The notes beneath the pieces were generated by a model, which made no database searches, was not told the DNA's origin, and was given only the letters and a program-made list of their open reading frames with translations. A DNA stretch of 64,000 nt from Levilactobacillus wangkuiensis. Its GTDB lineage: Bacteria > Bacillota > Bacilli > Lactobacillales > Lactobacillaceae. Made by a program: the position numbers and the translations under genes. This document shows positions 8,135-63,130 of this stretch, piece after piece. The DNA lies in NCBI RefSeq assembly GCF_016861605.1, contig NZ_BOLM01000003.1, positions 1-64,000 on the forward strand, given 5' to 3'. Numbering within the stretch: the first letter of the stretch is position 1; each line of letters starts with the position of its first letter.

Positions 8135-8313
8135 CGCCTCCGGCATGGTGAAAATGGACCGGAACGCTGTGGGCGAACGCCCGGAGCCACAGAGCGGTCT
8201 CCGAGCTTATTTTGAGCCTCACAAATCGAGTCTCAAAAATATCAGTTTCCTAAGCAGCCAAGCTGCTAAGGAAACTCCCACGGCTAAGCCCATTTTCACC
8301 ATACCTGCGGCTA
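8135..8313 (-). repeat. Cloverleaf repeat, family B
   Basis: Read on the minus strand: closing stem GTGAAAATGG with CCATTTTCAC; arm 1 AGTTTCCTTAGCAG with CTGCTTAGGAAACT (one T-T mismatch); arm 2 starting TTTGAG; arm 3 CGGAGACCG...GGCTCCG. It lies in the divergent spacer between luxS and the LCP gene, upstream of luxS. Confidence 0.85.
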
Positions 8314-8574
8314 ACACTGGATTAGCCCACACGAAACTTGTTAACGATACTTCCTTTACTGTACACCAAAGTAACCGCTACCGGCCACTAATTTCTTTTA
8401 GGGAATTATAACCATTTTTGTAAACGCTGATCTGCCAGCAACTTGGCTACATTCAGATAGGATTCACTAGGACATAATTGCCCTACTTGAAAATTAAGCG
8501 ATAGTCATCTAGTTCTGTAATGCCCGCACAATCTGGCAGCCACCAACCAATTTTTCCTGCCGGCTAAGTCAACG

Positions 8575-8833
8575 TGAGCCGCAGGACGGGTGAAAATGGG
8601 TACGCAAACGTCAGTGACCAGAGGCGGATCAAGGTTCCCAGCTGTGTCGATGGCGTTAGCTGAGGTTCCTCACTCAGCTTAGGCCATGGGGCGACCTTTG
8701 AGACCGATTCTCAGGCTCAAAGTCGAGGTGGAAGACCGCCCCTCAGGCTGGAACCGGCCCCACAGCAGGGCACCTTGAATCCGCCGCCGGGAACGGCTGG
8801 CTGTTGCCGCTCCCATTTTCACCCGCCCGGAGA
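8575..8833 (+). repeat. Cloverleaf repeat, family A (full)
   Basis: Outer stem GTGAAAATGGG with CCCATTTTCAC; long inner stem starting GGCGGATCAAGG with CCTTGAATCCGCC; arm 1 GCGTTAGCTGAG with CTCAGCTTAGGC (T-T mismatch); arm 2 CTTTGAG with CTCAAAG; arm 3 holding AGACCG...GGCT. The longest intact copy in the window, about 125 nt upstream of the LCP gene. Confidence 0.85.
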
Positions 8834-8956
8834 CGTATACAACGACTTAACCCGCCAGATAAGATTTGGTTAAAAGACTACCTAATTAGGTAAAGGTCGC
8901 CGCCATTTGCCACGTAAATGACTATACTTGTCAGCGTATAAGGGGGAGGAATCATC

Positions 8957-9952
8957 ATGCAAAACGTACCATTGCCGCCACGGGGACGGCATTTTACCAG
9001 TCGGCGGCACCGGGGACGCCACATCCTTTTGACCCTGCTCGCCCTCTTCCTAGTGGGCGGCGGACTTTACGGGTGGCACGCATGGCATACCGCTCAACAG
9101 ACCTTTTCAAAGACCTATCACGCCGTGGGCAAGCCCAGCGATACCACCATTACCAGCGGCAAGCCCTTTGCCATTCTTCTGCTAGGCACCGATACCGGCG
9201 CGCTGGGACGGACCCAGGTCGGTCGGACCGACACCATGATAGTTGCCACAATTAATCCGCAGAAGCAGACGGCCAAGCTGACCAGCATCCCCCGGGACAC
9301 ACTGGTCAATATTTACGGCAGTCAAAATGACGAGGAAAAAATCAACGCCGCTTATCCACTCTATGGGGCTAAAACCACGATTCAGACCGTGGAGCACCTG
9401 GTCAACATCCCCATCCACTACTATGTACTCCTGAACATGGGCGGCCTGGAGAAAATGATCAACGCGGTCGGCGGCGTCACAATTAATCCGCTACTGACCT
9501 TCCACTATCAACAAGCCAACGTCACCAAGGGCGTCAAGATTCACCTAAACGGCGCCAGCGCCCTGGCCTACTCCCGGATGCGTGACCAGGACCCACTGGG
9601 CGATTACGGCCGCCAAGCCCGCCAGCGCCAAATCATCAAGGCATTGGTGCTAAAGGAAGCCAGCCTGAGTTCGGTTCTGCGCTACCAAACGGTTTTGAAG
9701 TCGCTCAACAGTAACCTGCAAACGAATCTGACCTTCGACGACCTAATGTGGCTCCGCACCAAGGATGGCCACACCAGCCGCCACATCGAATCCCAAACGC
9801 TGCAGGGCCAACCGGCCACCATCAACGGCATCGACTACCAAATCGCCCCACAAAGTGAGATCACGAAGGTCTCAACAGGTCTCCGCCAAGCACTAGGCTT
9901 AGCCACCACCAGCACATTTCAAACGGATGCGTTGGACCCAATTGGCTTTTAA
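8957..9952 (+). CDS. LCP (LytR-CpsA-Psr) family wall-polymer ligase
   Basis: 331 aa. A short basic cytoplasmic tail, one membrane helix (about residues 25-45, ILLTLLALFLVGGGLYGW) and an extracellular LCP domain: LLLGTDTG, then GRTDTMIVATINP with the conserved Arg and Asp, LTSIPRDT, and YSRMRDQDPLGDYGRQARQR carrying the phosphate-binding Arg residues. LCP proteins attach teichoic acids or capsular polymers to peptidoglycan from undecaprenyl-pyrophosphate donors. The ribosome-binding site is an unusually G-rich GGGGGAGG, which could pair with the C-rich motif of the two predicted sRNAs in this window. It stands alone, ending in a convergent terminator. Confidence 0.93.
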   Translation: MQNVPLPPRGRHFTSRRHRGRHILLTLLALFLVGGGLYGWHAWHTAQQTFSKTYHAVGKPSDTTITSGKPFAILLLGTDTGALGRTQVGRTDTMIVATINPQKQTAKLTSIPRDTLVNIYGSQNDEEKINAAYPLYGAKTTIQTVEHLVNIPIHYYVLLNMGGLEKMINAVGGVTINPLLTFHYQQANVTKGVKIHLNGASALAYSRMRDQDPLGDYGRQARQRQIIKALVLKEASLSSVLRYQTVLKSLNSNLQTNLTFDDLMWLRTKDGHTSRHIESQTLQGQPATINGIDYQIAPQSEITKVSTGLRQALGLATTSTFQTDALDPIGF

Positions 9953-10009
9953 AGGTCCTTGAGGACAAGCTAAAGTTCTCATCGTCTTGAAGCGAAAATA
10001 ACTGATAAA

Positions 10010-10052
10010 AAATGCAGACTGGCAATTTCTATGAAATTGTCGGTCTGCATTT
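10010..10052. terminator. Bidirectional terminator between LCP and DUF1129 genes
   Basis: Stem of about 20 bp (AAATGCAGAC...CAATTTC with GAAATTG...GTCTGCATTT, loop TAT) with A and T tracts on both sides, placed between convergent genes. Confidence 0.9.
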
Positions 10053-10134
10053 ACTTTGTTTACATTTAATTGTTAAAGAACTATATCCAATGGTAAACAA
10101 CCGGTCCATCCGGCCAACTAAATCAGAGACGATC

Positions 10135-10190
10135 AAGAGCGACCAGAAGCGGGTCAAGGTTCCCCGCTGTGTCGATGGTGTTAGCTGAAC
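10135..10190 (+). repeat. Cloverleaf repeat fragment, family A left end
   Basis: GCGACCAGAAGCGGGTCAAG, then CGCTGTGTCGATGGTGTTAG matches the left half of family A, then similarity stops inside arm 1. A decayed or recombined copy next to a full one. Confidence 0.6.
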
Positions 10191-10257
10191 CATTAATTAT
10201 CCGCTTAAAATTAAGCTTACTATGGAAGCACACCCAGCTACTCCGACTTAAACCAGA

Positions 10258-10478
10258 ACTCGGTTAAAAATCAACCGCAGCCGCAGGAAGCCAGGGATGG
10301 AGTCAGCTGTGTCGATGGCGTTAGTTACCGTTCTTGGGTAACTTACGCCATGGGACGACTTTGGAGACAGGCTGGTTTTGCCAGGCTTCAAAGCGAGCTG
10401 GAAGACCGCCCTTTGGCTGGAGGCGTTCCCCACAGCAGGCGGAATCCCTGGAAGCCGGAGGCGGCTATTTTTAACCAG
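10258..10478 (+). repeat. Cloverleaf repeat, family A/C variant
   Basis: Outer stem AACTCGGTTAAAAA with TTTTTAACCAGTT; arm 1 ATGGCGTTAGTTACC with GGTAACTTACGCCAT (single T-T mismatch); arm 2 CTTTGGAGAC with GCTTCAAAG; arm 3 AGACCG...GGCT. Its right end touches the stop codon of the DUF1129 gene at 10479, so it forms that gene's 3' UTR before the terminator at 10010-10052. Confidence 0.8.
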
Positions 10479-11303
10479 TTACTCTGATTTAGTTTGGCGG
10501 AGTTGCCAGATGTGCCAGCCGATGATTAGGATGCTAGCATCCGCCAGCACCGTTCCCAATGCAATCAACAGGTTCCCCGCGGAGGTTACCATCAACCCGG
10601 AGGTCAACGGGAACCGCGCCAGTAAGCCCAGCAGCGTCGTAATCCACAGGCTCCCCAGAATGGCGGGAAACCAAGAATCCGCGTGACGCCGGTGATGCCA
10701 CCAGGTCAGACCAGTGACGGCCAGGGCAAAGACTAATAGGAACACACTACCGCCAACCCGGGTCAGGTAAATCAGCCCTCGCGCCGGGACGACTCGTGCG
10801 GCCAGCCACGTCGCGAGAAACAACGCGACAACGATGACCAGCCAACCGACTAGCTGCATTTGTGACGTCACCCGCCCGGCCAACCAGATACCTAGAATCA
10901 TGGCAATCACGAAGATGCCAAACTGTACCGTAATCAACAGGCCTTGTAGCGGCACGGCTGGTAAAATCGCTGCGGGTAAAACAACCCCTAAGATGAAGAT
11001 TAAGACAGGCACCAATAAGTCCCAGGTCAGCCACGCGGGTTTAGCCGTCGAAGCCGCCCCTACTTGGTTAGCGATGGTCTGCGGGTCCGCCCCGAAAAAG
11101 TCTCGGGCGGATTGTTCTTTTGACTGGGCCACTAATAAATTGGGCAAGACTTCCCGTAATTTTCGCTGGAGGGTATCCTCGTTAGCGAACTTGGGCTGTT
11201 GCCGCAAGGCCGTCACCAAGTCATCCCAGTAAGCCTGATTTTCTGGCGAAAGTTGCTCGCGTAATGCTTGATTTTGTTCCGCAATCGATAAGCGTTCTGC
11301 CAA
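10479..11303 (-). CDS. DUF1129 family membrane protein
   Basis: 274 aa. The soluble N-terminal part (AERLSIAEQNQALREQLSPE, then LVTALRQQPKFANEDTLQRK) is the DUF1129 signature; it is followed by six or seven hydrophobic segments from about residue 95 to the end. I chose a TTG start at 11303 because GAGAGGAG lies 8 nt before it; a longer reading starts at another TTG at 11330 without a ribosome-binding site. The family is common in lactobacilli and its role is unknown. It ends LRQTKSE directly against a cloverleaf repeat. Confidence 0.85.
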   Translation of the reverse strand: MAERLSIAEQNQALREQLSPENQAYWDDLVTALRQQPKFANEDTLQRKLREVLPNLLVAQSKEQSARDFFGADPQTIANQVGAASTAKPAWLTWDLLVPVLIFILGVVLPAAILPAVPLQGLLITVQFGIFVIAMILGIWLAGRVTSQMQLVGWLVIVVALFLATWLAARVVPARGLIYLTRVGGSVFLLVFALAVTGLTWWHHRRHADSWFPAILGSLWITTLLGLLARFPLTSGLMVTSAGNLLIALGTVLADASILIIGWHIWQLRQTKSE

Positions 11304-11382
11304 GATTGCCACTCCTCTCGTTTCACTCAATATTCCCCATGATAGGGAAGTTTCCCCCGGAATACCACTGATTTATCGCGGC

Positions 11383-11739
11383 CTAGTGAAAGATCCAGCC
11401 GAGCCAACCACCACCGGCCGCCAATATCAGGCCACCGCCGACACTGAGTAAGAGATACAGCGTCATGGCACCATACCGGCGTTGGTCCGCCAGCATGATG
11501 ACCTCGTGACTGAAGGTTGAATAGGTCGTGAAGCCACCTAGGACCCCGGTTCCAAGTAAAACAGCGGTTAAATTAGTTGCTTGCCAACCGGTTAAAAAAC
11601 CTAACAATAGGCACCCCAACCAGTTGATCAACAGCGTGGCGAGTGGCCACCGATTGCCATGATAGGACTGCACCAATCGCGTCATTCCGTAGCGGCCCAA
11701 AGCCCCCACGGTCGCGCCCAGGCCAGCCACTGCGGCCAT
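11383..11739 (-). CDS. crcB: Fluoride channel subunit CrcB/Fluc, second gene
   Basis: 118 aa, four membrane segments. Fluc motifs: GALGRYGMTRL near the N-terminus, LLINWLGCLLLGFL (conserved Asn of the pore), and GFTTYSTFSHE (the TT-STF phenylalanine-box region). It exports fluoride passively. Starting at the ATG at 11739 removes a 38-residue non-membrane extension; GGAGG lies 7 nt before, and the ATG shares its A with the upstream gene's TGA stop, so the genes are translationally coupled. Two unlike CrcB genes side by side suggest a heterodimeric channel. Confidence 0.93.
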   Translation of the reverse strand: MAAVAGLGATVGALGRYGMTRLVQSYHGNRWPLATLLINWLGCLLLGFLTGWQATNLTAVLLGTGVLGGFTTYSTFSHEVIMLADQRRYGAMTLYLLLSVGGGLILAAGGGWLGWIFH

Positions 11740-12131
11740 CACTCTTCCTCCAAGTGGAACGTCCACCAGCGCCGGGCAATCCACACACCCAGGGCACTGC
11801 AAATCATCCCACCAATGACGGTGATCAGCACGTAACTGATGGCCGCTAGCCACCGTTGTTCACTCATCAACCGCACGGCGTCGACGCTAAACGTCGAGAA
11901 GGTCGTAAACGCCCCGACGCCACCGACACCTAAACCCACGGTCACGGCTTCCGGCCACTGAGCCGTCAGGCGTTTGGCATGAGACAGCCAAGCCAATAGC
12001 CCACTACCGATCAAGTTAATCAAGATCGTCGCCCAGGGAAATCCGGACGTCGCGGGTAAAGCCTGCCCCACCAGGTAGCGCCCACTGCCCCCAAGAAAGG
12101 CAAAAACAATAATTGCAAACACGTTAGCCAT
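11739..12131 (-). CDS. crcB: Fluoride channel subunit CrcB/Fluc, first gene
   Basis: 130 aa, four membrane segments. Motifs: GGSGRYLVGQAL, ATILINLIGSGLLAWL (pore Asn), GVGAFTTFSTFSVDAV (TTFSTF). The ATG at 12131 has GGAGG in front; the open frame runs to 12254 without a better start. Coupled to the second crcB by a 1-nt overlap. I found no fluoride riboswitch consensus upstream; instead a short terminator-like hairpin and a TACAAT -10 box lie just before the gene. Confidence 0.93.
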   Translation of the reverse strand: MANVFAIIVFAFLGGSGRYLVGQALPATSGFPWATILINLIGSGLLAWLSHAKRLTAQWPEAVTVGLGVGGVGAFTTFSTFSVDAVRLMSEQRWLAAISYVLITVIGGMICSALGVWIARRWWTFHLEEE

Positions 12132-12160
12132 TTGCTGGCCTCCTCCAAAAGTATCTTTCC

Positions 12161-12191
12161 ATTGTACCAAAAAAGCCGCCATCAAGGCGAC
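12161..12191 (-). promoter_or_regulatory. Terminator hairpin abutting the crcB promoter
   Basis: On the minus strand a 6-bp hairpin (GTCGCC with GGCGGC, loop TTGAT) runs into six Ts at 12174-12169, and a TACAAT -10 box preceded by TGG (extended -10) follows at 12166-12161. The hairpin probably ends transcripts from the trxA/cstR side, including the repeat at 12353-12534, and crcB starts anew just after it. Confidence 0.6.
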
Positions 12192-12352
12192 TTCTGGTGA
12201 AACTAGTTTAGATTGAGTACGAGTTGGCCGAGAAAATTTGAAGCAGTAGATCAATCAGCCAGATTCATTCGCAACTCAAATCACAAATCAATTGTCAATT
12301 CAGCCACAATCAATGTCAAATAACGAAGACATTGTCCTGGATTAAACCCACG

Positions 12353-12534
12353 TTAGCCGCAGGGCTGGTGAAAATGGGCTCAGCCGTGGGAGTTCCCTTA
12401 GCGGGGGGACCCGCTTAGGGAACTGCTATCTTTGAGACGCGTTTCTCAGCGGCTCAAAGTAAGTCTGGAGACCGCCTTTCGGCTCCAGACGTGCGCCCAC
12501 AGCGCCACGGCCCATTTTCACCAGCCCGGAGGCG
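12353..12534 (+). repeat. Cloverleaf repeat, family B
   Basis: Closing stem GTGAAAATGGGC with GCCCATTTTCAC; arm 1 AGTTCCCTTAGCGGG with CCCGCTTAGGGAACT (T-T mismatch); arm 2 TTTGAGAC...GGCTCAAA; arm 3 CTGGAGACCGCC...GGCTCCAG. It starts 12 nt after the stop codon of the CsoR-like gene and lies before the hairpin at 12169-12191, so it should be transcribed as 3' UTR. Confidence 0.85.
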
Positions 12535-12546
12535 ATAACAACGACC

Positions 12547-12810
12547 TTAGTGCGTCTTAACAACCAAATCAAGCGCTGTTTGTAATTCATGTTGCTGGTC
12601 TTCGCTGAGCTGGTCATCCGCGATGCACTGCTTGACGTTTTCAGCAACGACGACCCCAATCATGCGCTCCACGCCGGAACGAACGGCGGCGAGTTGCGTC
12701 AGGATGTCCTGACATTCCCGACCGTCATCGACCATCTTCAGGATGCCCTGTAGCTGGCCGTCCGCTCGCCGAAGCCGATTCTTTAATTGACTGGACGTTG
12801 TTTGAACCAT
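12547..12810 (-). CDS. CsoR/CstR (DUF156) family repressor, probably CstR-like
   Basis: 87 aa, all-helical DUF156 fold. Cys33 (GRECQDILTQL) and Cys62 (VVAENVKQCIADD) occupy the two Cys positions of the family with the usual spacing of 29. The residue four before the second Cys is Asn58, where copper-sensing CsoR has His, so copper sensing is unlikely and a persulfide-sensing CstR-type role fits better (inference from family rules). Context agrees: it is coupled to thioredoxin (start shares one base with the trxA stop) and follows a CoA-disulfide-reductase-family enzyme. A GC-tract palindrome before trxA is its likely operator. Confidence 0.85.
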   Translation of the reverse strand: MVQTTSSQLKNRLRRADGQLQGILKMVDDGRECQDILTQLAAVRSGVERMIGVVVAENVKQCIADDQLSEDQQHELQTALDLVVKTH

Positions 12811-13142
12811 TAAGCACTCACCTCAGTTAATTTTTCGTCGATGTACTTCTTGAGCGCGGCCTTCGGGTGAAAGCCCACAACCTTTTCCGTTGGCATCCCG
12901 TTCTTAAAGATCACCAATGACGGAATGCTCATGATGCCTAGAGATTGGGCCAGGTCTTGGTTCTGGTCGACGTCGAGGGACGCAAACTTCACTTGGTCAC
13001 CATAGGCTTCGTCTAAACTTTCCAGAACAGGTGTCTGCATTTTACATGGCCCACACCAGTCAGCCCAAAAGTCCACGACCGTGACCGCGGTGTCATCACC
13101 AATGTGTTCAAAATCCTTACTTGTAATTGCTTGCATGTTCAT
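12810..13142 (-). CDS. trxA: Thioredoxin
   Basis: 110 aa with the active site WCGPC (about residues 31-35) in VDFWADWCGPCKMQ and the cis-Pro loop IMSIPSLVIFKNG. It reduces cytoplasmic protein disulfides and, in sulfur-stress operons, persulfides. GAGGAGG lies 4 nt before the ATG at 13142 and 10 nt before an in-frame ATG at 13136; either could be the start. The stop codon overlaps the start of the CsoR/CstR-like gene by one base, so the repressor is made with thioredoxin and probably controls it through the palindrome at 13178-13193. Confidence 0.95.
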   Translation of the reverse strand: MNMQAITSKDFEHIGDDTAVTVVDFWADWCGPCKMQTPVLESLDEAYGDQVKFASLDVDQNQDLAQSLGIMSIPSLVIFKNGMPTEKVVGFHPKAALKKYIDEKLTEVSA

Positions 13143-13177
13143 TCATCCTCCTCAGTTTCTTAATCAGTGTCATCAGT

Positions 13178-13193
13178 ATACCCCAAGGGGTAT
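13178..13193. promoter_or_regulatory. Palindromic operator for the CsoR/CstR-like repressor
   Basis: ATACCCCAAGGGGTAT is a perfect 16-bp inverted repeat of the C/G-tract kind bound by DUF156 repressors. On the minus strand its right half runs into TATACT, a good -10 box, placing the operator between the -35 and -10 elements of the trxA promoter, the position of a classic steric repressor. Confidence 0.8.
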
Positions 13194-13225
13194 GATGACG
13201 CCAGCTTTTTGTTTTCAGCGTAGCC

Positions 13226-13257
13226 AAAAAAGGCGTGACACCCGTAGGCACCACGTC
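13226..13257 (-). terminator. Terminator after the NADH oxidase-like gene
   Basis: On the minus strand GACGTGGTGCC pairs with GGTGTCACGCC (several G-T pairs), followed by six Ts. It separates the flavoenzyme gene from trxA. Confidence 0.75.
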
Positions 13258-13272
13258 TCATTTACCAATTCG

Positions 13273-15180: not shown

Positions 15181-15186
15181 ACCCGT

Positions 15187-15335: not shown

Positions 15336-15371
15336 TATGCCCAAATCTCTCTGCGGGTTGTGCTTTGTCTT

Positions 15372-15640
15372 GCGCCTCCGGGCCGGTGAAAATTGAGCCG
15401 TGACGTGGTAGTTGGCCGTTCCCGGCGGCGGATTCAAGGTGCCCTGCTGTGGGGTCGGTTCCAGCCTGAGGAGCGGGCTTCCACCTCGACTTTGAGCCAA
15501 AGGACGGTCTCAAAGGTCGTCCCATGCTCTAAGCTGAGTGAGAAACCTCAGCTAAGACCATCGACACAGCTGGTCGCCTTGACCCGCCTCTGGTCACTAG
15601 CATCTACCTAGCCTGCTCATTTTCACCAGCCCTGCGGCTT
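15372..15640 (-). repeat. Cloverleaf repeat, family A (full)
   Basis: Read on the minus strand: GGCGGGTCAAGG... with ...CCTTGAATCCGCC as the long stem; arm 1 TCTTAGCTGAG with CTCAGCTTAGA; arm 2 CTTTGAGACC...GGCTCAAAG; the arm-3 AGACCG motif is altered to AGCCCG. It lies between sRNA 1 and the DedA terminator, outside any obvious transcript. Confidence 0.85.
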
Positions 15641-15696
15641 ATACTGGCTTAACCCACTCCATTTGGACATTGTTTCTAATCTCAACTATTCCTACC

Positions 15697-17189: not shown

Positions 17190-17410
17190 AGTGGAAAAAA
17201 CTTTGCGCGTCTAGATTGTAAGAGTGACTAAGTTTCTGACCGAATTTATCGCTAATTTCTGGACAAACGTCAGTTGTTAAAAATTGTTTGATAGCGTGTC
17301 TAGTTTAAATATTACGGCTACCTGTTAATTCGATTAAACATAACTACAGATACGACACAATATTAGCTCAATTAACACGGGAACTAGCTCAGCCCCACCC
17401 CACCACAGTT

Positions 17411-17535
17411 AAAATCCACCTGGACTACACGCGGATTAAACCAGTGTCAGCCGCAGGGGCGGTGAAATGAGCCCGGCATGGACAGTGTCAGTGACCAGAG
17501 GCGGATCAAGGTGACCAGTTGTGTCGATATCTTCT
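17411..17535 (+). repeat. Cloverleaf repeat fragment with duplicated flank
   Basis: Left end of family A (GTGAAATGAGC, then CAGTGACCAGAGGCGGATCA, ending just after GTGTCGATAT). Its first 62 nt (17411-17472) recur almost identically at 17568-17630 in front of the next copy, so the flank plus element end was duplicated. Confidence 0.75.
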
Positions 17536-17605
17536 TGCCACTGTTTGACTACAACCGCCATTAGTTAGAATCCACCCTGGACTACACGCGGGTTAAACCA
17601 GTGTC

Positions 17606-17781
17606 AGCCGCAGGGGCGGTGAAAATGAGCTCAGCCGTGGGAGTTGTCTTAGCGGGTTACCGCTTAGACAACTGCTATCTTTGAGACGTGGTCTTCGGCT
17701 CAAAGTAAGCTGGAAGACCGCTTTTTGGCTTCCAGCTTGCGCCCACAGCGTCACGGCTCAGTTTTCACCAACCCGGAGGCG
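17606..17781 (+). repeat. Cloverleaf repeat, family B
   Basis: GTGAAAATGAGC with GCTCAGTTTTCAC as closing stem; arm 1 AGTTGTCTTAGCGG with CCGCTTAGACAACT (T-T mismatch); arm 2 TTTGAGAC...GGCTCAAA; arm 3 AGCTGGAAGACCGC...GGCTTCCAGCT. It begins 19 nt past the degV-family stop codon. Confidence 0.88.
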
Positions 17782-17800
17782 CAGAAACCGTTCAAGCCCG

Positions 17801-21425: not shown

Positions 21426-21459
21426 ATTTACAGTTTGTTTAAAGGAAACTCATTAGCCA

Positions 21460-21690
21460 ATATCAGTGACCAGAGGCAGATCAAGGTGCCCAGCTGTGTC
21501 GATGGTCTTAGCTGAGGGTTTTCACTCAGCTTAGAGCATGGGTCGACCTTTGAGACCGCACTTTGGCTCAAAGTCGAGGTGAAAGACCACCCCTCAGGCT
21601 GGAACCGGCCCCACAGCAGGGCACCTTGAATCCGCCGTCGGGAACGACAATCACCCATAGAACCAGACCATTTTCACCAGCCTGAAGGCG
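21460..21690 (+). repeat. Cloverleaf repeat, family A
   Basis: Long stem CAAGGTGCCC with GGGCACCTTG; arm 1 GTCTTAGCTGAG with CTCAGCTTAGAGC; arm 2 CTTTGAGACC...GGCTCAAAG; arm 3 AGACCACC...GGCT. The outer left end is lost, the right end CATTTTCACCAGCC kept. It starts 17 nt from the SDR stop codon. Confidence 0.85.
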
Positions 21691-26103: not shown

Positions 26104-26297
26104 TGTCGCCTGCGGCTGCCAGGAGCTCCGCCTGCTATGGGGTCGGTTCCAGCCTGAGGGACGGGCTTCCACCTCGACTTTGAGCCACAAGGCCCGTGTC
26201 TCAAAGCTCGCCCCGCGCTGTAGGCCGGGAAAGAACCCCGGCCAACACCGCCGACACAGCTGGCTCCGTCCTGGCCTCCTCCGGCTAAAATTAGCCG
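26104..26297 (-). repeat. Cloverleaf repeat, family A variant
   Basis: Minus-strand reading: arm 1 GGTGTTGGCCGGG with CCCGGCCTACA (T-T mismatch kept although the next A-T pair has become G-C); arm 2 CTTTGAGAC...GGCTCAAAG; arm 3 with GAAGCCCG...GGCT. Outer GTGAAAAT stem lost. First of three copies in 770 bp. Confidence 0.75.
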
Positions 26298-26344
26298 TTC
26301 ATGCCATCAGAGACTGAGACAAAAGTACCCGCTGTCCACCTGTG

Positions 26345-26535
26345 TCACTCCTGCGCCTTGCCGGACAACGCCAAGTGGGCGGCCGTCTGAAGCCTAAGAG
26401 CGGTCTTCAGACTTACTTTGAACCGCTAAGGCTCGCGTTTCAAAGATACCAATTCCCTAAGCGGCACTCAAGCCGTGCCACTAAGGGAATTCCCACGGCT
26501 GACGCCATTGACGTTGCCCTATCGGCTGACATAAG
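26345..26535 (-). repeat. Cloverleaf repeat, family B
   Basis: Minus-strand reading: arm 1 AATTCCCTTAGTGGCA with TGCCGCTTAGGGAATT; arm 2 TTTGAAACG...GGTTCAAA; arm 3 TCTGAAGACCGC...GGCTTCAGA. Closing stem degenerate. Confidence 0.8.
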
Positions 26536-26691
26536 TGTTAGCCAGAATGTTGTCTCTCTATCCCTGCCAGTACCAACTCACATAAACGTCCAGCACAACA
26601 CAAAAGGTGCAGACATCATCTGATTTTCAGACAATGCCTACACCTCTGATAAGCTCTTTAATTAGCATGCAAATCGTGACTGATCTCATCC

Positions 26692-26873
26692 ATGTTAGCC
26701 GTGAGGGCAGTGAAAATAGGCTCAGCCGTGGGAGTTGTCTTAGCGGTTTACCGCTTAGACAACTGGTATCTTTGAGACGCGCTTTTCGGCTCAAAGTAAG
26801 CTGGAAGACCGCTCTATGGCTTCCGGCGGCCGCCCACAGCGTCACGGCCTATTTTCACTGCCCGGTAAGGCGC
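26692..26873 (+). repeat. Cloverleaf repeat, family B
   Basis: GTGAAAATAGGC with GCCTATTTTCAC closing stem (paired even where it differs from GTGAAAATGGG copies); arm 1 AGTTGTCTTAGCGG with CCGCTTAGACAACT; arm 2 TTTGAGAC...GGCTCAAA; arm 3 GGAAGACCGC...GGCTTCC. It begins 30 nt after the ndh stop codon. Confidence 0.88.
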
Positions 26874-26903
26874 CCGGACAACGACCATGTAACCAGTATA
26901 AGC

Positions 26904-29839: not shown

Positions 29840-29905
29840 GTGGCGAAAGCAGATTCCGCCCACCGCGTTCCGACCTATTTTCGCCACCCGGTAAGGCGCA
29901 AACAA
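29840..29905 (+). repeat. Minimal cloverleaf remnant (arms lost)
   Basis: GGGTGGCGAAA pairs with TTTCGCCACCC and the right end CCCGGTAAGGCG is that of the superfamily, but the three arms are gone. The closing stem has changed on both sides together. Confidence 0.6.
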
Positions 29906-29988
29906 GCACGCCATTTAACCAGCAACAAATGCGTTTACATGCTACACTAAGCGTAACTCACTGCAATATTGAAGGAGCCCACTACAAA

Positions 29989-32389: not shown

Positions 32390-32408
32390 CCAACGGTAGT
32401 TTTGCCCC

Positions 32409-32595
32409 GTGCCTCCAGGCTGGTGAAAATAGACCGGAACGCGGTGGGCGGCCGGCTGAAGCCAAAGGACGGTCTTCAACCTTACTTTGAGCCTCAAACG
32501 CGAGTCTCAAAGATACCAATTTCCTAAGTGTCACCAAAAGCGTGCCACTAAGGAAATTCCCACGGCTGAGTCTATTTTCACCAACCTTGCGGCTT
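32409..32595 (-). repeat. Cloverleaf repeat, family B
   Basis: Minus-strand reading: GTGAAAATAGAC with GTCTATTTTCACC closing stem; arm 1 AATTTCCTTAGTGGCA with TGTCACTTAGGAAATT (T-T mismatch, one G-T); arm 2 TTTGAGACTCG...GGCTCAAA; arm 3 GAAGACCGTC...GGCTTC. It starts 19 nt past a plus-strand stop codon and ends before that gene's terminator, so in that mRNA it appears as the antisense sequence. Confidence 0.85.
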
Positions 32596-32655
32596 ATACA
32601 GTGTTAACCACCGTTGCCAGCTCTGTGCCAGTTAAAAACTAAATATGCTAACTCA

Positions 32656-35313: not shown

Positions 35314-35407
35314 CAAGTCACTGTATATTTATACGATTACATTGTGACGCCAGCTAACCAAGTGACCACAGAACCGACTGTCACTGCCATAAGATCACAC
35401 TCGTATC

Positions 35408-35640
35408 AGTCGCAGGGCTGTGGAAATTATGCCGCATGGACAGTCTTAGTGACCAGAGGCGGATCAAAATGCCCAGCTGTGTCGGTGGCCTTGGCTGAGG
35501 TTCCTTCTCAGCCTAGCCCACGGGGCAACCTTTGAGACCGGTTTGTGGCTCAAAGTTGAGGTGGAAGCCCGCCCTTCGGCTGGAACCGACCCCACAGCAG
35601 GGCGTTTTGAATCCGCCGCCGGGAACGCACCAGTCCATGG
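35408..35640 (+). repeat. Cloverleaf repeat, family A
   Basis: The long stem reads ATCAAAATGCCC with GGGCGTTTTGAAT, against ATCAAGGTGCCC with GGGCACCTTGAAT in other copies: GG-to-AA on the left is matched by CC-to-TT on the right. Arm 1 CCTTGGCTGAG with CTCAGCCTAG keeps the T-T mismatch while the next A-T pair is G-C. It starts 6 nt after the corA stop codon. Confidence 0.88.
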
Positions 35641-39114: not shown

Positions 39115-39232
39115 TAATTGTTGTATTCCGGGGATTGTATTCGCCTCCAATTGTAACAATAATTATCTAATTTGTCGGCTGATTTAGCAAACTTTATGCT
39201 CAGTCGTTAATTTTTGCGGGTTGAACACGTTG

Positions 39233-39413
39233 CAGCGCCTCCGGGCGGGTGAAAATGAGCCGTGTCGCTGTGGGCGAACGCCCGGAGCCAAAAAACGGTC
39301 TCCGCGCTTACTTTGAGCCGCTAAGGTACGCGTCTCAAAGATATCAGTTCCCTAAGTGGCTTCGCCACCAAGGGAACTCCCACTGCTGAGCTCATTTTCA
39401 CCCACCCTGCGGC
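39233..39413 (-). repeat. Cloverleaf repeat, family B
   Basis: Minus-strand reading: GTGAAAATGAGC with GCTCATTTTCACCC; arm 1 AGTTCCCTTGGTGGC with GCCACTTAGGGAACT; arm 2 TTTGAGACGCG...GGCTCAAA; arm 3 CGGAGACCG...GGCTCCG. It lies upstream of the GH13 gene and beyond the terminator of the GlcD-like gene. Confidence 0.85.
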
Positions 39414-39548
39414 TTACACTGGTTCAGCCCGCCATTAACTGACCTCCTCCATGATTCCTGGTTTTTTCACGTTTTTCCAGCGTTCGATTTCCCTGCATAT
39501 TTATGCAGTTCGTTCCGCCTGTCTAAAACCAGAAGCAGCTCCGCCACC

Positions 39549-41226: not shown

Positions 41227-41348
41227 AATTTCATGGGAAATTAATGCTCTACTTTGTTGAAGCAAACTGGCTAGTCACGCTGACAAATATTTCTGAAAAA
41301 TATTATTGGGCAATGCCAGTCACCCACTCGTCTAATCAGCAGTAGTGT

Positions 41349-41533
41349 GGTACCGGAGGCGGCTAGATGGCGCAGACCTGTGTCGGTAGCGTTAGTTGGC
41401 GTCTTTTACCGGCTTACGCTACGGGTCAGTTGGAAGACGTGGCTCTTTCACGGCTTTCAACTGCCTCTGAAGACCGCTTCTCAGGCTTCAGAGGTCACCC
41501 CCACAGGCGGAGTTATCTAGGCCGCCGGAGGTA
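41349..41533 (+). repeat. Cloverleaf repeat, family C
   Basis: Different closing stem: GGTACCGGAGGCGGC with GCCGCCGGAGGTACC. Arm 1 GTAGCGTTAG...CTTACGCTAC (T-T mismatch kept); arm 2 CAGTTGGAAGACGTG with CACGGCTTTCAACTG (AC/GG internal loop); arm 3 CCTCTGAAGACCGC...GGCTTCAGAGG. It starts 20 nt after the ABC gene stop codon. Confidence 0.85.
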
Positions 41534-45145: not shown

Positions 45146-45325
45146 CCGCCTCCAATAGCTGAACGCCAAGCCTATGGGGCAACCCTCCGGAGCCAAAGAG
45201 CGGTCTCCGAAGGCGTACTGAAGCCCCGCAAAAACCGCGTGTCTTCAGTACGACCCGGGCTGTAAGGCCGCAAGCCCAGCGACCAAACAGCCCTATCATA
45301 GGCTAGGCATTCAACTACCTCCGGC
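45146..45325 (-). repeat. Cloverleaf repeat, family C
   Basis: Minus-strand reading: arm 1 GGGCTGTTTGG...CCTTACAGCCC; arm 2 CGTACTGAAGAC...GGCTTCAGTACG (10 bp perfect with AC/GG internal loop); arm 3 CTTCGGAGACCGC...GGCTCCGGAG. The outer part CGCCTCCAATAGCTGAACGC is decayed. Confidence 0.75.
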
Positions 45326-49698: not shown

Positions 49699-49821
49699 TG
49701 ACCAGAATATTTGAATTTTAATTAAATGCATCGACTTCACACTAACGGGTTAAGGCAGTCAGCAACTCAAAAACAACAGAAATACCAAGGAGCTCCGCAA
49801 TAATTTCCGGTCACCACCATG

Positions 49822-49838
49822 TCAGCCGGTAAGGCGAA
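49822..49838 (+). repeat. Short remnant of a cloverleaf repeat end
   Basis: CAGCCGGTAAGGCG matches the right ends of several repeat copies (CCGGTAAGGCG). It lies 16-30 nt after the SDR stop codon. Similar scraps occur at 45556-45570 and 57173-57187. Confidence 0.4.
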
Positions 49839-49853
49839 TGAAGCCACCAGTAA

Positions 49854-56106: not shown

Positions 56107-56212
56107 TTTGCCCAAGGGTTATCATTTGATAACTTAATAAGTGAGTCCCAACAAGTCCCGTGCTATACTAAATTTGATATCGTTTTCACGACCTTAAAGG
56201 AGGATGCTTATT

Positions 56213-57160: not shown

Positions 57161-57249
57161 ACTAGCCTCTGATTCGCCTTACCGGGAGACACCGGTTTAA
57201 CCCCGTGTAGCCGCGCTACCTATTTACTAACTTGATCCTATTTTTTAAA

Positions 57250-57303: not shown

Positions 57304-57520
57304 TCATTCACCACATCAATGACCCCAATCGAAAGTTTTCAATTGCCGCAACCCCTTATTTCAAACCAATTGCGAGCGCATACAATCAAGTCGCTAACGT
57401 TGACGTTCCGGCATTATGGGCGTATCTTAGTAGAGTTACCATTACGGATAATTCACGATTGGTTTGCGTTACTTTGGGTAATCTCACCAATCAATTCAAT
57501 CAATAGGGAGTTGAACTATT

Positions 57521-58750: not shown

Positions 58751-58766
58751 GTTAAAAGCAAATTAA

Positions 58767-58804
58767 ATGGACACGACAATTTTTTAATGTCGTGTCCATT
58801 TTTC
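58767..58804. terminator. Terminator between the MFS and OYE genes
   Basis: AATGGACACGACA pairs perfectly with TGTCGTGTCCATT, followed by TTTC on the plus strand; it also suits the convergent gene. Confidence 0.9.
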
Positions 58805-58816
58805 TATCCACTACAC

Positions 58817-60745
58817 TTACAGTTGTCGAGCTACGACAAATCCTTCATGAACTGCATCGTAAATCTGACGAACACGTTCGGAGTCCCCAATATTATAAAT
58901 ATCCATATCCGTTTGCTCTTCAAGTTTATCTGCCAATGAAGTTTGTGGGACGAAACCAGCCGCCGTCACAACTGCTGTCGCTGACAAAGTCGTTATATTG
59001 CCAAACCGATCCACTAAGTTAACCCCCTTGGTCGTTACCTCTTGCAATCTCAGCCCCGTCAATACTTTGACCTGTGCTTGTTTGATTGCAATTTTATAAA
59101 CTAGGGAAGACTGTGCAGGACTTGCTAAAAACTCATCCATCATTTCAACAATTGTGACTTGTTTACCAGCAGCTTTCAATTCCAAAGCTGTTTCGGCTCC
59201 CGTCACGCCGCCACCAATAACGACAACATCATCCCCAGATACATCCTGACGACCACCTAAATAATCCATTGCCGAAATTACATTATCTTGATTAATTCCT
59301 GGCACGTCAAGTTTACGTTCGGCACCCCCTACTGCAACAATCACAGCTTGATAGCCTTGATTCACTAAATCTGCGTAAGTTGCTGTTTTCTTTTCTAATT
59401 TAATATTTTTACTCCGTGTCACATGCTCTTCGTAGTAAGTCGTAAGTCTACGAATATTGGCTTTACTCTCTGGCGCCGCGGCTTCAACCATGGCTCCGCC
59501 AAATGAACGCCGCTCATAGAGTGTGACCTGATGACCACGACTTGCCGCAACCAAAGCGGCCTCACATCCTGCAGGTCCAGCACCAATCACTGCGATATTC
59601 TTGCTGACACTTGCTGGTTCATAAGGATTTGATTCATATTTATAAAGCGTTGGATTAACCGTACAATGAATCGGCGTATTTGCCAACAAGCCACGATCCA
59701 TACAGCCGATTAGGCAATTGATACAAGGATTAATATCGTGTGCCTGATTTCTCTGAGCCTTTTTTGCCCATGCAGGATCTGCTAAGAATGCCCGACCCAG
59801 AGCAACAAAATCTCCGGCATTTTTTTCTAAAAGCTGCTCAGCAATCTCTGGTGTAAAAACATTATGACCCGCAAATACGGGAATGTGGACGGCTTCCTTA
59901 ATTTTCTGTGTATCTCCTGCATTGAAGGCGTTAGGTTTTAACATTTCCATTGAGGCCGTAGCGTGGGTACCACCCATCAAATTCAAATGGGAAACCCCTT
60001 CACGTTCAAGCTCCTGGCAAACCTTAATTGTTTCTGGCAATCGGATGCCATCTGGCTCCCAATCGTCCGTTGATAATTTCACGCCGACCGGGAAGTCAGG
60101 GCCACACTTTTGTTTAACATCTCTAATGATCTCTAGCAAAAAACGCATCCGATTTTCAAGTGAGCCACCATACATGTCTGTTCGTTGATTATCGTGTGGT
60201 GACAAAAAATTCGTTGGAATACAGCCTGCTGCCCCATGAATCTCAAGGACTTCAAATCCTGCCCGCTTACATCGCAACGCAGCATCACCAAACTTATGTA
60301 CCAAATCATGAATTTCACCAACACTCAAAGCCCGTGGTAATTTTGCTCCGGCCTGATACCATGGTTCGTAAGTGATTGCTGAAGCACCAATGACATCTGC
60401 ACTTCCTACGAAACCTGCATCACGGCCTGGGTGGGCTAGCTGCATGGCAGGCACAGCACCATGTTCTTTCAAGGCATCTGCCAACAATGATAGCCCAGCA
60501 ATAAATTCATCTTTATCTGCTCGCAAACCGCAGGATGTCATCGGAACTGGTGTCGCATTATCCATGAAAATTAACCCCGCACCACCATCTGCTGCTTCGG
60601 CATAAGCTTTAATTTGTCTATCCGTGACCGTCCCATTAGGATTTCCTAAGTAAGTTCCCATTGAGTTACGCACAATTCTATTTTTGATAACAACATTACC
60701 AATTTTGCCTTTTGTAAATAATTTTGGATAATGGCTACTTTTCAT
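58817..60745 (-). CDS. Old-Yellow-Enzyme/FAD-dependent enoate reductase (FadH/BaiCD-like)
   Basis: 642 aa, three parts. An FMN TIM barrel (about 1-345) with NRIVRNSMGTYLG, LEIHGAAGCIPTNFLSP and YGGSLENRMRFLLEI; a 4Fe-4S site NPCINCLIGCMDRG plus a later Cys (IHC); then FAD (IAVIGAGPAGCEAA) and NAD (VVVIGGGVTGAETA) domains. This is the 2,4-dienoyl-CoA reductase/bile-acid and cinnamate reductase class, which reduces activated C=C bonds with NAD(P)H. The gene is visibly AT-richer than its surroundings, which suggests transfer. A TetR gene diverges from it. Confidence 0.94.
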   Translation of the reverse strand: MKSSHYPKLFTKGKIGNVVIKNRIVRNSMGTYLGNPNGTVTDRQIKAYAEAADGGAGLIFMDNATPVPMTSCGLRADKDEFIAGLSLLADALKEHGAVPAMQLAHPGRDAGFVGSADVIGASAITYEPWYQAGAKLPRALSVGEIHDLVHKFGDAALRCKRAGFEVLEIHGAAGCIPTNFLSPHDNQRTDMYGGSLENRMRFLLEIIRDVKQKCGPDFPVGVKLSTDDWEPDGIRLPETIKVCQELEREGVSHLNLMGGTHATASMEMLKPNAFNAGDTQKIKEAVHIPVFAGHNVFTPEIAEQLLEKNAGDFVALGRAFLADPAWAKKAQRNQAHDINPCINCLIGCMDRGLLANTPIHCTVNPTLYKYESNPYEPASVSKNIAVIGAGPAGCEAALVAASRGHQVTLYERRSFGGAMVEAAAPESKANIRRLTTYYEEHVTRSKNIKLEKKTATYADLVNQGYQAVIVAVGGAERKLDVPGINQDNVISAMDYLGGRQDVSGDDVVVIGGGVTGAETALELKAAGKQVTIVEMMDEFLASPAQSSLVYKIAIKQAQVKVLTGLRLQEVTTKGVNLVDRFGNITTLSATAVVTAAGFVPQTSLADKLEEQTDMDIYNIGDSERVRQIYDAVHEGFVVARQL

Positions 60746-60836
60746 CAGTCAGATCTCCTTATCAATCACTTATTTGAATACGCTTTCATTGTGCTATAAT
60801 TCACTTGTTGCCACAATCACAAGAACTACCTAAAAA

Positions 60837-60850
60837 GTTGCTTAAGCAAC
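60837..60850. promoter_or_regulatory. Palindromic operator between the OYE and TetR genes
   Basis: GTTGCTTAAGCAAC is a perfect 14-bp palindrome. A half copy, GGTTGCTTAAAGG, recurs at 60865-60877 over the tetR ribosome-binding site. Likely binding sites of the divergent TetR protein. Confidence 0.8.
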
Positions 60851-60887
60851 GAAAAAAAAGAGAAGGTTGCTTAAAGGAGGAGAATTC

Positions 60888-61478
60888 ATGTCCACAGACA
60901 TTCGAATCGTTAAAACTAGACGTAACATTGAATATCACTTTGTTCAGCTACTCGGTCAATTCGATTTTAATGACATCACTATAAAGTTGCTGACAACAAC
61001 TTGCCAAATTAATAAGACGACCTTCTACAGAAATTATGCTGATAAGTACGATTTACTAAACAAAATTTCAACGGATCTGCTTGAGCATTACATCCATGTG
61101 GTTGACCGTGAGCCAACGATTTTGACCGGCGACCCTTCCTACTTGGTACCCATTATTGATTACTTTGAACAAAATCAAGAAACACTGCTCATCTTGCTCC
61201 ACCGTCCATTGCCAGTCACCTTATTTGATGACATGCTCACCGTTTTTCAGTCAGTTCTACTGACCGCATTTAACGTCAAAGAACCTGATGCTTCTGAAAA
61301 GCAGGTTCAAGTGATGTCTTTTTATGCCCGCTTAATTGCTGGCAATATCTTAACAACAATTAGGTGGCAGCATACTGAAAAACCATTGTTACGTAAAGAT
61401 GAGCTCATTTCACTAATTATGGAAAGCTTCGAAGACGGTGTCTTACCAAGTATTCACGAAAAATTTCCTAATCTTTAG
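60888..61478 (+). CDS. TetR family regulator of the OYE gene
   Basis: 196 aa. N-terminal HTH with LLTTTCQINKTTFYRNYADK (TetR helix 3 and the FYRNYADK motif), then a helical C-terminal domain of the TetR_C type common in Firmicutes. Start at the ATG at 60888, with AAAGGAGG before it. AT-rich like its divergent neighbour, so the pair probably arrived together. Likely represses the reductase gene and itself through the palindrome between them. Confidence 0.9.
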   Translation: MSTDIRIVKTRRNIEYHFVQLLGQFDFNDITIKLLTTTCQINKTTFYRNYADKYDLLNKISTDLLEHYIHVVDREPTILTGDPSYLVPIIDYFEQNQETLLILLHRPLPVTLFDDMLTVFQSVLLTAFNVKEPDASEKQVQVMSFYARLIAGNILTTIRWQHTEKPLLRKDELISLIMESFEDGVLPSIHEKFPNL

Positions 61479-61483
61479 ACATA

Positions 61484-61536
61484 AAAAAACGACAGTCTTC
61501 AAGCCATTCTCAGCTTGTGGATTGTCGTTTTTTGGC
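61484..61536. terminator. Terminator of the TetR gene
   Basis: AAAAACGACA pairs with TGTCGTTTTT-like sequence around an inner CAAGC/GCTTG hairpin, T tracts on both sides. Confidence 0.85.
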
Positions 61537-61638
61537 ATCTTAATTTACATGGTAAATCACATTGCACTTTAAAATAATTTAGAGAGTGCTAGTAAAAATC
61601 ATCAGCAAGTTCAGCCTATAAAGACCTTCAATGGCTAT

Positions 61639-62118
61639 TTACCCCGCAAAACGTTCAAGGGGAACCTCTTCACCCGGCCCAAAAACCGTTGCCGACGTCG
61701 TGCTGACACCGAGTAAACTGCTGATGCCGCCGAAGCCGTCGACCATATCGAAAGCAACACCAGCTGCGGCTAAGGTTTGCCGGGCATGGCGTTCTTCCAG
61801 CGGCAACTCTTCGATGTCATCCGTGCGACTGATGATCAGTTGTGGATTACCAGCAGCCTGGACCGCCGTTGCCAACGTGCTAGCCGTTTTGGCCAAGCGA
61901 ATTGTTGGCACCAAGGCCACGACCAGGTCCTGATCCAGCATGGCGGCGCTCAGGCCACCTTCATCCAGCACTTCTTCGGTCAACGCCGTCACAGATTCGG
62001 GCAAACTCACCGCACTGGAGGTGTAAACGGTCAGGTCTAACTGACTATTTTGGCTTAATTGACGGACAAAATTTTGACTGGCAGCATCGAGGGCACCAGC
62101 GAGTAAGAGTCGTTTCAA
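61639..62118 (-). CDS. Short NAD(P)-binding-like protein
   Basis: 159 aa. The N-terminus RLLLAGALDAASQNFVRQLS resembles a Rossmann start with a degenerate Gly motif, and VEDIEELPLEERHARQTL-like sequence (DIEELPLEERHARQTLAAAG) recalls the end of NmrA-type SDRs; it is about 50 residues shorter than the full SDR at 28538-29179. The start is TTG at 62118, with AAAGGAAG upstream. Perhaps a shortened, non-catalytic SDR derivative. Confidence 0.7.
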   Translation of the reverse strand: MKRLLLAGALDAASQNFVRQLSQNSQLDLTVYTSSAVSLPESVTALTEEVLDEGGLSAAMLDQDLVVALVPTIRLAKTASTLATAVQAAGNPQLIISRTDDIEELPLEERHARQTLAAAGVAFDMVDGFGGISSLLGVSTTSATVFGPGEEVPLERFAG

Positions 62119-62734
62119 GGTCGTAACTTCCTTTCATTCATGTATCGATTTAAGCGCTGGTCATTTTCTTAGCGTATTAGCTGACCAGCGAATATGTGCG
62201 TCTTCAAGTGATTGGGTGTGGTTGAAATCCCACAGTGACGCCCGTTATTGGTCTCTTTTAAGCAACCAATCATGCGATGTCCCTAACCCAATGTAAATGA
62301 TTATAAAGGGTTACAGTAGGTCGAAGGCAACCCCTATTTTAAAAAAATTCTGAGCGAATAAATAAGCAATTACTTATTAAAAACTCATAAAAATATGTTA
62401 TTGTGTCGAAATACCCTGCAGGCCTGACACAACAACGATACGGTTACGTCCCGAATCCGTTTACACTAGAAGATTATCAACAGAAGGAATAGTTATCTTT
62501 TGGTAAATGTAACTCTTTCATGTACAATAGACCTAACTGCGAAACGAAAAACCGAATACGACCGGTCTCCAGGCTGCCCGTCTTGACGTGTGCTCCCGGC
62601 ACACCGATCGTTATTTTTGTACGCGGACTAAGCTGTGTCGTCCAGGCCTCCGGGCTTACTCGTTACAGTTTATCACTACCTACAGGCCACACGAGTTTAA
62701 CCACCGACACATTCGTCGCCGCCTTAAACTAGTG
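62119..62734. other. Intergenic region
   Basis: No gene supported. AGGCCTCCGGGC at about 62644-62655 recalls a repeat end, so an eroded repeat copy may lie at 62550-62730. Confidence 0.35.
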
Positions 62735-62824
62735 CCAGCCACAGGGAGAATAAAAATAGGCTCAGCCGTGGGAATTATCTTAGCGGCGATTTTTGCTGCT
62801 TAGATAATTGCTATCTTTGAGACG
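62735..62824 (+). repeat. Cloverleaf repeat fragment, family B left half
   Basis: AATAAAAATAGGCTCAGCCG, arm 1 AATTATCTTAGC...GCTTAGATAATT (T-T mismatch) and the first half of arm 2 (TTTGAGACG); cut off there. Confidence 0.75.
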
Positions 62825-62931
62825 CCCTGGCAGTCCTATCATCATTCTGTCTTAACCCGTCCAACCACGCAGACCACCGAACACGGTCGCGTGATCACCG
62901 TTCACTCACCCCCATAAAAATCAACCTGTTG

Positions 62932-63130
62932 GGTGAGCGACCAGAGGCGGATCAAGGTGCCCTGCTGTGTCGAGAATATAAGCTGAACGCCTTTCTCAGC
63001 TTATATTCTGGGACGACCTTGGAAACACGCGCTTCACAGCGTGGTTTCAAGGCGAGACGCCAGACCGCTTCTCAGGCTGGCGTCGGTCCCCATAGCAGGG
63101 CACCTTGAATCCGCCGGCGGGAGCGGGCTT
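62932..63130 (+). repeat. Cloverleaf repeat, family A with diverged arms
   Basis: The stem GGCGGATCAAGGTGCCC continues without mismatch through GCTGTG/CATAGC. All arms have new sequences yet pair: arm 1 AGAATATAAGCTGA with TCAGCTTATATTCT; arm 2 CCTTGGAAAC...GGTTTCAAGG; arm 3 GACGCCAGACCGC...GGCTGGCGTC. The only copy where the arm-1 T-T mismatch is fully paired. About 50 nt upstream of the OpuCA gene. Confidence 0.88.

Follow-up and report, generated by a model that had tools for sequence, protein, structure and literature searches.

The window analysed here, which opens contig 3 of the 3.14 Mb draft genome of Levilactobacillus wangkuiensis, holds within its 64 kb copies of a large repeat that folds into a cloverleaf. 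In an intact copy, a closing stem leads into a four-way junction from which three hairpins (arms 1 to 3) branch, and the core, a GTG/CAC stem enclosing the three hairpins, is common to three classes, A, B and C, which were defined in this analysis. Class B has a closing stem with GTGAAAAT/ATTTTCAC, and its ends are GCCGCAGG or GCCGTGAGG and CCGGAGGC or CCGGTAAGGC; in aligned copies, the terminal inverted repeats read GGGTTAA-N4-GTGTCAGC and its inverse, with GCCGCAGG and CCGGAGGC on the outside, and plain B copies measure 161-196 bp between the end boxes (n = 63). Class A has the stem ACCAGAGGCGG...CCGCCGCCGGGAAC and occurs either free or seated within a B stem, and class C (sites 10258, 26104 and 41349) has a further, different kind of closing stem. 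The original prediction, made from the letters of the window, had described every intact copy as three hairpins within a GTGAAAAT/ATTTTCAC stem: folds bear out the hairpins and a closing stem, but this particular stem is not general, being confined to B copies and A-in-B composites and lacking in free A copies. The element is real, unnamed as far as we have searched, and spread over a family of bacteria.

Copies of the repeat in the window

Self-comparison of the window recovered the repeats at the predicted places on both strands. Cores were searched with the covariance model R1, which describes the three-armed core and rests on 32 copies; those from the window, 12 in number, match R1 by construction. 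The rows of its alignment are 31 of 35 non-redundant cores plus one further window copy, and the model rests on a first consensus fold of only 18 pairs, with arms 2 and 3 out of register between families; in the first-pass core set, 7 of 71 failed the boundary rules and 18 profile matches had no core. In the window, R1 gave 18 matches, i.e. 17 cores (E 5e-28 to 2e-6) and one weak antisense echo (E 0.048). All 20 sites that had been listed, on both strands, hold sequence of the family: 15 complete cores of at least 79 bits, one weaker core, one half copy and three remnants.

The sites are named below by their listed positions, and what two related species, L. mulengensis and L. lanxiensis, hold at the same place is given in brackets. 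Complete family B cloverleaves lie at 8135 (8119-8339, minus strand, from the fold; core 8167-8284, 89.7 bits; common to L. mulengensis, composite remnant in L. lanxiensis), 12353 (12327-12552, plus; core 12383-12502, 92 bits; A inside the same stem in L. lanxiensis), 17606 (17580-17794, plus; core 17634-17748, 91.2 bits), 26692 (26688-26886, plus; core 26725-26839, 95.7 bits), 32409 (32392-32620, minus; core 32442-32566, 79.3 bits; stem only in L. lanxiensis) and 39233 (39221-39439, minus; core 39268-39386, 85.2 bits; L. mulengensis has A within this stem); a further B cloverleaf lies at 26345 (26357-26590, minus; core 26373-26499, 81.1 bits), in a stretch entirely absent from L. mulengensis. 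Family A cores sit within a B closing stem at 8575 (8553-8869, plus; core 8641-8765, 121.1 bits; plain B in both relatives) and 15372 (15341-15657, minus; core 15447-15570, 121.3 bits; the same in both relatives). At 21460 (21437-21690, plus; core 21493-21616, 116.6 bits; L. mulengensis has plain B), the A copy has lost the 5' part of the B stem and kept the 3' part. Family A cloverleaves are also found at 35408 (35393-35638, plus; core 35476-35597, 119.1 bits; L. mulengensis has two consecutive copies) and 62932 (62931-63148, plus; core 62964-63095, 108.4 bits). The latter replaces the 3' half of the B copy at 62735, of which the 5' half is left (62724-62825, plus; 34.5 bits with R1, 73.8 bits with the profile; complete B in both relatives). 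Class C is represented by complete cloverleaves at 10258 (10267-10480, plus; core 10306-10435, 118.2 bits) and 26104 (26104-26300, minus; core 26135-26260, 123.8 bits), and by a cloverleaf with its own closing stem at 41349 (41334-41531, plus; core 41377-41506, 93.2 bits).

The weaker core, at 45146, is diverged (45172-45302, minus; 58.8 bits), and L. mulengensis has a different interior there, A-like by eye. Coreless remnants, detected by profile search only, comprise the 5' end of an A copy at 10135 (10135-10190, plus; 44.8 bits; similar remnant in both relatives), the 5' part of a truncated A-in-B composite at 17411 (17407-17532, plus; 38.2 bits; also seen in self-comparison and species comparison) and the closing stem of a B copy at 29840 (29840-29910, plus; 19.8 bits; full B with a different arm 1 in both relatives). 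Comparison with the related species revealed three extra remnants: the 3' arm of a B closing stem near 7392 (7388-7420, plus; full B in L. lanxiensis), a B-copy remnant with its 5' flank near 49730 (49725-49851, plus; complete B in L. lanxiensis, missing from L. mulengensis) and a B-copy remnant near 57190 (57175-57225, no strand assigned; both relatives have complete B copies, whose arms differ). The copies had been predicted to lie outside credible genes; the open reading frames running over cores are 93-109 codons long, and the five tested had no Pfam match at E 0.1. As for the neighbouring genes, two adjacent CrcB-family genes, overlapping as called, lie at 11383-12254 (minus strand), and equal-length self-matches at 3862-4790 and 4981-7082 probably mark two adjoining pairs of diverged gene duplicates.

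Covariation, irregular positions and strand polarity

Covariation was assessed in 37 of 45 non-redundant B elements (five were omitted beforehand untested, and three were removed as class C after the first alignment), using a structure drawn from one row and shuffles that take no account of relatedness. Altogether 96.2% of 2025 cells pair, compared with 82.7% after shuffling, both sides have changed at 33 of 55 pairs, and all five covariation measures lie above all 500 shuffles (0/500 as high) and above every slid version. Covariation is thus present in the closing stem and in all three arms, i.e. in every variable helix, as expected if the predicted fold is real; the three basal pairs and some pairs of the other helices are invariant and hence uninformative. 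Together with the sites shared between species described below, it excludes a chance origin of the repeats. Template switching during replication can create such stems and repair or keep them (PMC8794818). Part of the covariation may come from template switching rather than from selection for RNA, so that covariation alone is no proof of an RNA.

Within these helices, some irregularities are held in place. A T.T mismatch occupies a fixed position of arm 1 in 26 of the 37 B elements, ten others having A-T there and one G.G. It is found in 118 of the 174 cores of all classes that made up the fold-test set (174 distinct of 176 cores, the half copy at 62765 and one core from elsewhere in the genome not being included). 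All 37 B elements have an extra A beside the conserved stem in arms 2 and 3; over the 174 cores, the extra base of arm 3 is A in 107 and C in 37, the latter being the base of many A copies, with 26 falling outside the search pattern. The junction and loop letters are conserved; arm 1 is diverse (123 distinct sequences in 134 copies). For 14 copies from three other genera (groups g18, g34 and g52), folds read by eye show arms 1 and 2 and a closing stem of roughly 19-30 bp in every case, and a single hairpin as arm 3 in 11. The letters of the closing stem vary between these genera; the T.T mismatch and the extra A recur.

The mismatches are also polar. When G.U pairing was forbidden, the 1x1 mismatches on the consensus plus strand of the 174 cores were GT 81 against AC 27, GA 102 against TC 18, GG 107 against CC 19 and TT 124 against AA 19, many of them stemming from fixed positions. 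In the B alignment, GT occupies 70 cells and AC 26; pairs with recurrent mismatches account for 63 and 16 of these, and pairs with one such cell for 7 and 10. Changes between orthologous copies gave 30 GT and 41 AC, and the difference between 30:41 and 70:26 has a nominal p of 1e-4, on sequences that are non-independent. From the wobble and mismatch polarity we infer that one strand had to fold, and the lack of such an excess among recent changes suggests that plus-strand folding was tested in the lineages that spread and not in each resident copy.

Persistent sites, exchanged interiors and distribution

Aligned blocks are 92-97% identical to the window in L. mulengensis, the nearest genome used, and 90-96% identical in L. 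lanxiensis, which has in addition one duplicate at 73%. In both species, a copy is present in every comparable intergenic region that has one in the window (14/14 each), and regions unfilled in the window are filled in 1 of 25 (L. mulengensis) and 3 of 29 (L. lanxiensis). At greater distance, L. cerevisiae shares 4 of 6 comparable filled regions and L. suantsaiihabitans 4 of 9, and of the regions unfilled in the window, 1 of 14 and 1 of 13, respectively, are filled there. Sites persist, and their interiors are exchanged: over three species, the interior class differs (A against B) at six of 23 sites, 8575, 12353, 21460, 39233, 45146 and 62735/62932, by eye with orientation kept at all six, and at 8575, 12353 and 39233 the swap occurred inside the same outer stem. 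Since A replaces B, exchange between copies must also act. Only remnants are left at 7392, 29840, 49730 and 57190 in the window and at 32409 in L. lanxiensis, and the stretches 26357-26590 and 49725-49851 are missing from L. mulengensis altogether. Beside one cloverleaf site, opposite 12273-12287, L. mulengensis carries an array of short CAAACTA-type tandem units (L187-L190) that is absent from the window.

Change within resident copies was followed in 22 comparisons of copies of one type at 15 sites, some changes being counted more than once. Of 1525 orthologous pairs, 1391 are unchanged, 99 changed on one side and 30 show double complementary changes to another standard pair, with five changed on both sides otherwise. 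Twelve of the 30 double changes fall at site 57190 and are perhaps due to replacement; by our own estimate, independent change would yield very few such events. At unpaired positions, flanks included, 197 of 1833 differ.

The flanks of B copies are, moreover, inverted repeats specific to their locus. For 85 B-type elements (63 plain, 22 longer and mostly with A inside; the three class C elements dropped from the covariation set, and perhaps others alike, remain among them), inverted similarity between the two flanks averages 11.81 at the element's own locus and 7.79 with swapped flanks (0/2000 permutations). The signal reaches about 70 nt (0/2000 at 30-70 nt, 306/2000 at 60-100 nt), although beyond 30 nt the mean excess is below one score unit and 3 of 81 elements reach a score of 12. 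Direct flank similarity is at chance (216/2000 and 1167/2000), in a score that duplications shorter than about 8 bp would escape. At two loci, L114 and L046, the inverted flank copy matches what appears, by eye and in our own translation, to be the 3' end of the neighbouring gene.

The repeats are abundant. With at most 150 matches scored per genome, the own genome gave 150 scored of 1165 candidates, all matching R1 at E 7e-23 or better. The window is rich in copies, since it holds 17 cores in 64 kb and seven other stretches of the genome (140 kb) hold 12, and extrapolation from core density gives roughly 270 to 450 copies for the whole genome. In a draw of Lactobacillaceae, R1 matched 115 of 397 genomes and 12 of 40 genera; among the matches listed, the carriers are Levilactobacillus species and one Lactobacillus assembly. 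Under the stricter filters of the large draws, which lose weak matches, 14 of 295 genomes of the order matched, 12 of them in Lactobacillaceae and two outside by weak single matches (E 5e-5 and 6e-4), and none of 397 other genomes sampled across the phylum did, the own genome being the sole match of 398. The restriction to a lineage that had been anticipated thus holds, the repeats being practically confined to Lactobacillaceae bar these two. In one genome of another genus (G117, group g26), four core matches lie within 0.7 kb of contig 4 (about 201763-202474), three on the minus strand followed by one on the plus strand.

Among the 150 scored matches of L. brevis, 17 of 19 neighbouring pairs with starts less than 600 bp apart are divergent (minus then plus), two are minus-minus and none is plus-minus or plus-plus. 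Ten aligned units of about 500-600 bp (L208-L220) join a B-like copy to a class C copy through a spacer that varies. Several have, by eye, a distal inverted copy of the outer end, none being clear in L210, L215 and L220; the terminal repeats match within a unit and differ between units (e.g. L208 and L217).

The repeat is not a named family of Rfam, as had been suspected: release 15 gave no match at the curated cut-off in the window, and over 12 further loci it matched only tRNAs and one chance-level sequence, not the repeats. Below threshold, the Enterococcus sRNA_1300 model matched 10005-10170 on the minus strand (32.6 bits against a cut-off of 48.8), overlapping the 10135 remnant by 36 bases; the match covers a strong short inverted repeat running into this remnant. 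Among the open-licence papers listed, none describes these repeats by title or by the start of its abstract.

Proposed spread of the repeats and competing explanations

The original prediction had offered a mobile element, a structured RNA and a protein-binding chromosomal element without choosing. Our data lean towards non-autonomous dispersed elements because copies show no orientation bias to genes, occupancy differs between species and no selection on one strand was detected in recent changes. Gene context was classified for 135 cores, after removal of 27 overlapping short open reading frames and 13 at locus ends: among 76 copies in tandem gene places, 35 point with the genes and 41 against them, and 37 copies lie in convergent and 22 in divergent places. 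The reading that unites the facts best, which leaves room for a functional RNA or a chromosomal role and to which we give a probability of about 0.45, is that these elements had one strand selected for folding during spread and that hairpin-templated copying, together with exchange between copies, rewrites their arms. The spreading form would be a folded single strand, always of one polarity, and a putative factor would recognise the four-way junction and the irregular positions (T.T mismatch, extra bases). Once resident, a copy would no longer be tested strand by strand; its arms would stay paired through template switching, i.e. hairpin-templated copying, and through exchange of interiors with other copies, and the same copying, extending the stem into neighbouring DNA, would produce the locus-specific inverted flanks. 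Whether this amounts to a new class of mobile element spreading as a single-stranded DNA cloverleaf, with an enzyme recognising the junction and extra bases, swappable template-switched arms, inverted copies of the neighbourhood in the stem and, in L. brevis, two-cloverleaf units with terminal inverted repeats of their own, is doubtful.

Several observations weigh against spread of this kind. No mobilising enzyme is linked to the repeats so far. Y1 transposase (PF01797) gave no match in the own genome, with five control genomes positive; it is present in 23 of 35 genomes of the genus, repeat-rich ones included, and absent from two repeat-bearing ones (G002 and G016), a count to which no statistic is attached. 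A need for an IS200/605 or RAYT enzyme was rejected on these counts. Neither plasmids (searched with one A and one B copy) nor phages (with the B copy only) gave a match, in a search that may leave out records very close to the genome of the window, and such an absence would be surprising if the element were mobile and active. A clean recent insertion with target duplication was not seen either, the differences between the nearest species resembling losses and exchanges, and no B copy split into halves 120-4000 bp apart was found in the loci examined, whole genomes not being searched. In resident copies, change is less frequent at paired than at unpaired positions, and this could reflect selection acting on every copy. 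The inverted-flank signal comes mostly from the first 30 nt, and class C (24 elements) has little of it (2/2000 with the ends, 323/2000 without). Finally, divergent places hold fewer copies than convergent ones, and the wobble polarity fits a transcribed RNA as well.

This last point bears on the strongest competitor, in which each copy would be a structured non-coding RNA, or a domain of read-through transcripts, acting in place. The strong covariation in every variable helix, the surplus on one strand of G.U relative to A.C, and likewise of G.A relative to C.T, and the same core in other genera would all suit it, but hundreds of copies without orientation bias to flanking genes, without an Rfam match at cut-off and, by eye, without a conserved common-promoter sequence beyond the outer ends would not, nor would recent single changes in which G.U is not in excess (30 against 41), and we consider it unlikely. 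Less likely again are protein-binding chromosomal elements, with a role in the nucleoid or replication, held at their sites by selection. Occupancy of 14/14 with each of the two nearest relatives, interiors that change while the site stays, and the absence from plasmids and phages as far as searched are consistent with such a role; against it stand an uneven density, many remnants, many sites that differ at about 80% identity, and the lack of a replichore orientation bias among the 150 scored matches of L. brevis (38 plus and 39 minus on one replichore, 37 and 36 on the other, with the origin assumed near coordinate 1).

Improbable, in our estimate, are neutral palindromes that maintain themselves solely through template switching, without selection. 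The mechanism is published (PMC8794818), and it would account for single pairs that changed on both sides between close relatives and for the inverted flank copies, including the apparent gene ends at L114 and L046. Such correction would, however, remove both the extra A (37/37 B elements) and the T.T mismatch (26/37), which persist and recur in other genera; the junction and loop letters are conserved, and hundreds of related copies require a route by which to spread.

A SINE-like retroelement, whose RNA a trans-acting reverse transcriptase would turn back into DNA, could explain the wobble polarity, and arm exchange could be template switching by that enzyme, of which the own genome has two genes; yet neither gene has a core within 1.5 kb, no common tail is seen by eye, one enzyme best fits PADLOC RT_VI and the other adjoins an apparent phage variable protein, so that this origin is very improbable. 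The former (321 amino acids; L243, contig C11, about 69.1-69.7 kb) has RT_VI as its best PADLOC model, which we take to be retron type VI. The latter (349 amino acids; L242, contig C22, about 2.4-6 kb) matches only RVT_1 in Pfam, and its neighbour, a phage-like protein without a Pfam match that ends in a Gly/Trp/Ser-rich stretch, gives the pair the look of a diversity-generating retroelement in a prophage. Equally slim is the chance that the repeats are enlarged bidirectional terminators or transcript stabilisers, as their intergenic position, strong hairpins and surplus in convergent places (37 against 22) might suggest, since many lie in tandem (76/135) and divergent places and a three-arm junction with conserved irregular positions should be unnecessary for termination.

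Dispersed elements of comparable size are familiar from other bacteria. BOX, ERIC, Correia/NEMIS and RUP, of MITE type, are non-coding, dispersed, palindromic sequences of about 100-350 bp with terminal inverted repeats. Our B copies share such terminal repeats and, by these descriptions, the size and dispersal, but differ in having a closing stem with three hairpins, interchangeable interiors, genus-specific closing stems, inverted flanks and no visible target duplication. Integron attC sites work as folded single strands with extrahelical bases; unlike them, the cloverleaf repeats are not in gene-cassette arrays. REPs are palindromes of 20-40 bp tagged GTAG or CGTC, the GTAG ones being tied to Y1-type transposases, and REP/BIME sequences with RAYT resemble our repeats as high-copy, intergenic, non-autonomous palindromes possibly handled as single strands (PMC3733652); the cloverleaf repeats are, however, three-armed, 160-340 bp long and present in a genome without Y1 transposase. 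The stem-loop containing sequence families of PMC2267715 are likewise a systematic class of repeated foldable sequences, and in the main text of that paper L. johnsonii is the sole Lactobacillus and the word "cloverleaf" is absent. The Lacto-rpoB, Lacto-usp, Lacto-int and lactis-plasmid motifs are also structured sequences of Lactobacillales (PMC2864571); our repeats match none at the Rfam cut-off, in a comparison that excludes Lacto-int, which has no Rfam accession in the source table.

Automatic RNA discovery would presumably rate these repeats as strong RNA genes, and their length may interrupt short-read assemblies. Since the flanks of many copies are known and these copies share their places in closely related genomes, the repeats offer a good test bed for asking how far templated copying, as opposed to selection for RNA, can give rise to perfect covarying stems. 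If the repeats move, this would imply machinery that handles folded single strands, and they may rank among the commonest non-coding sequences of many lactobacilli, L. brevis included.

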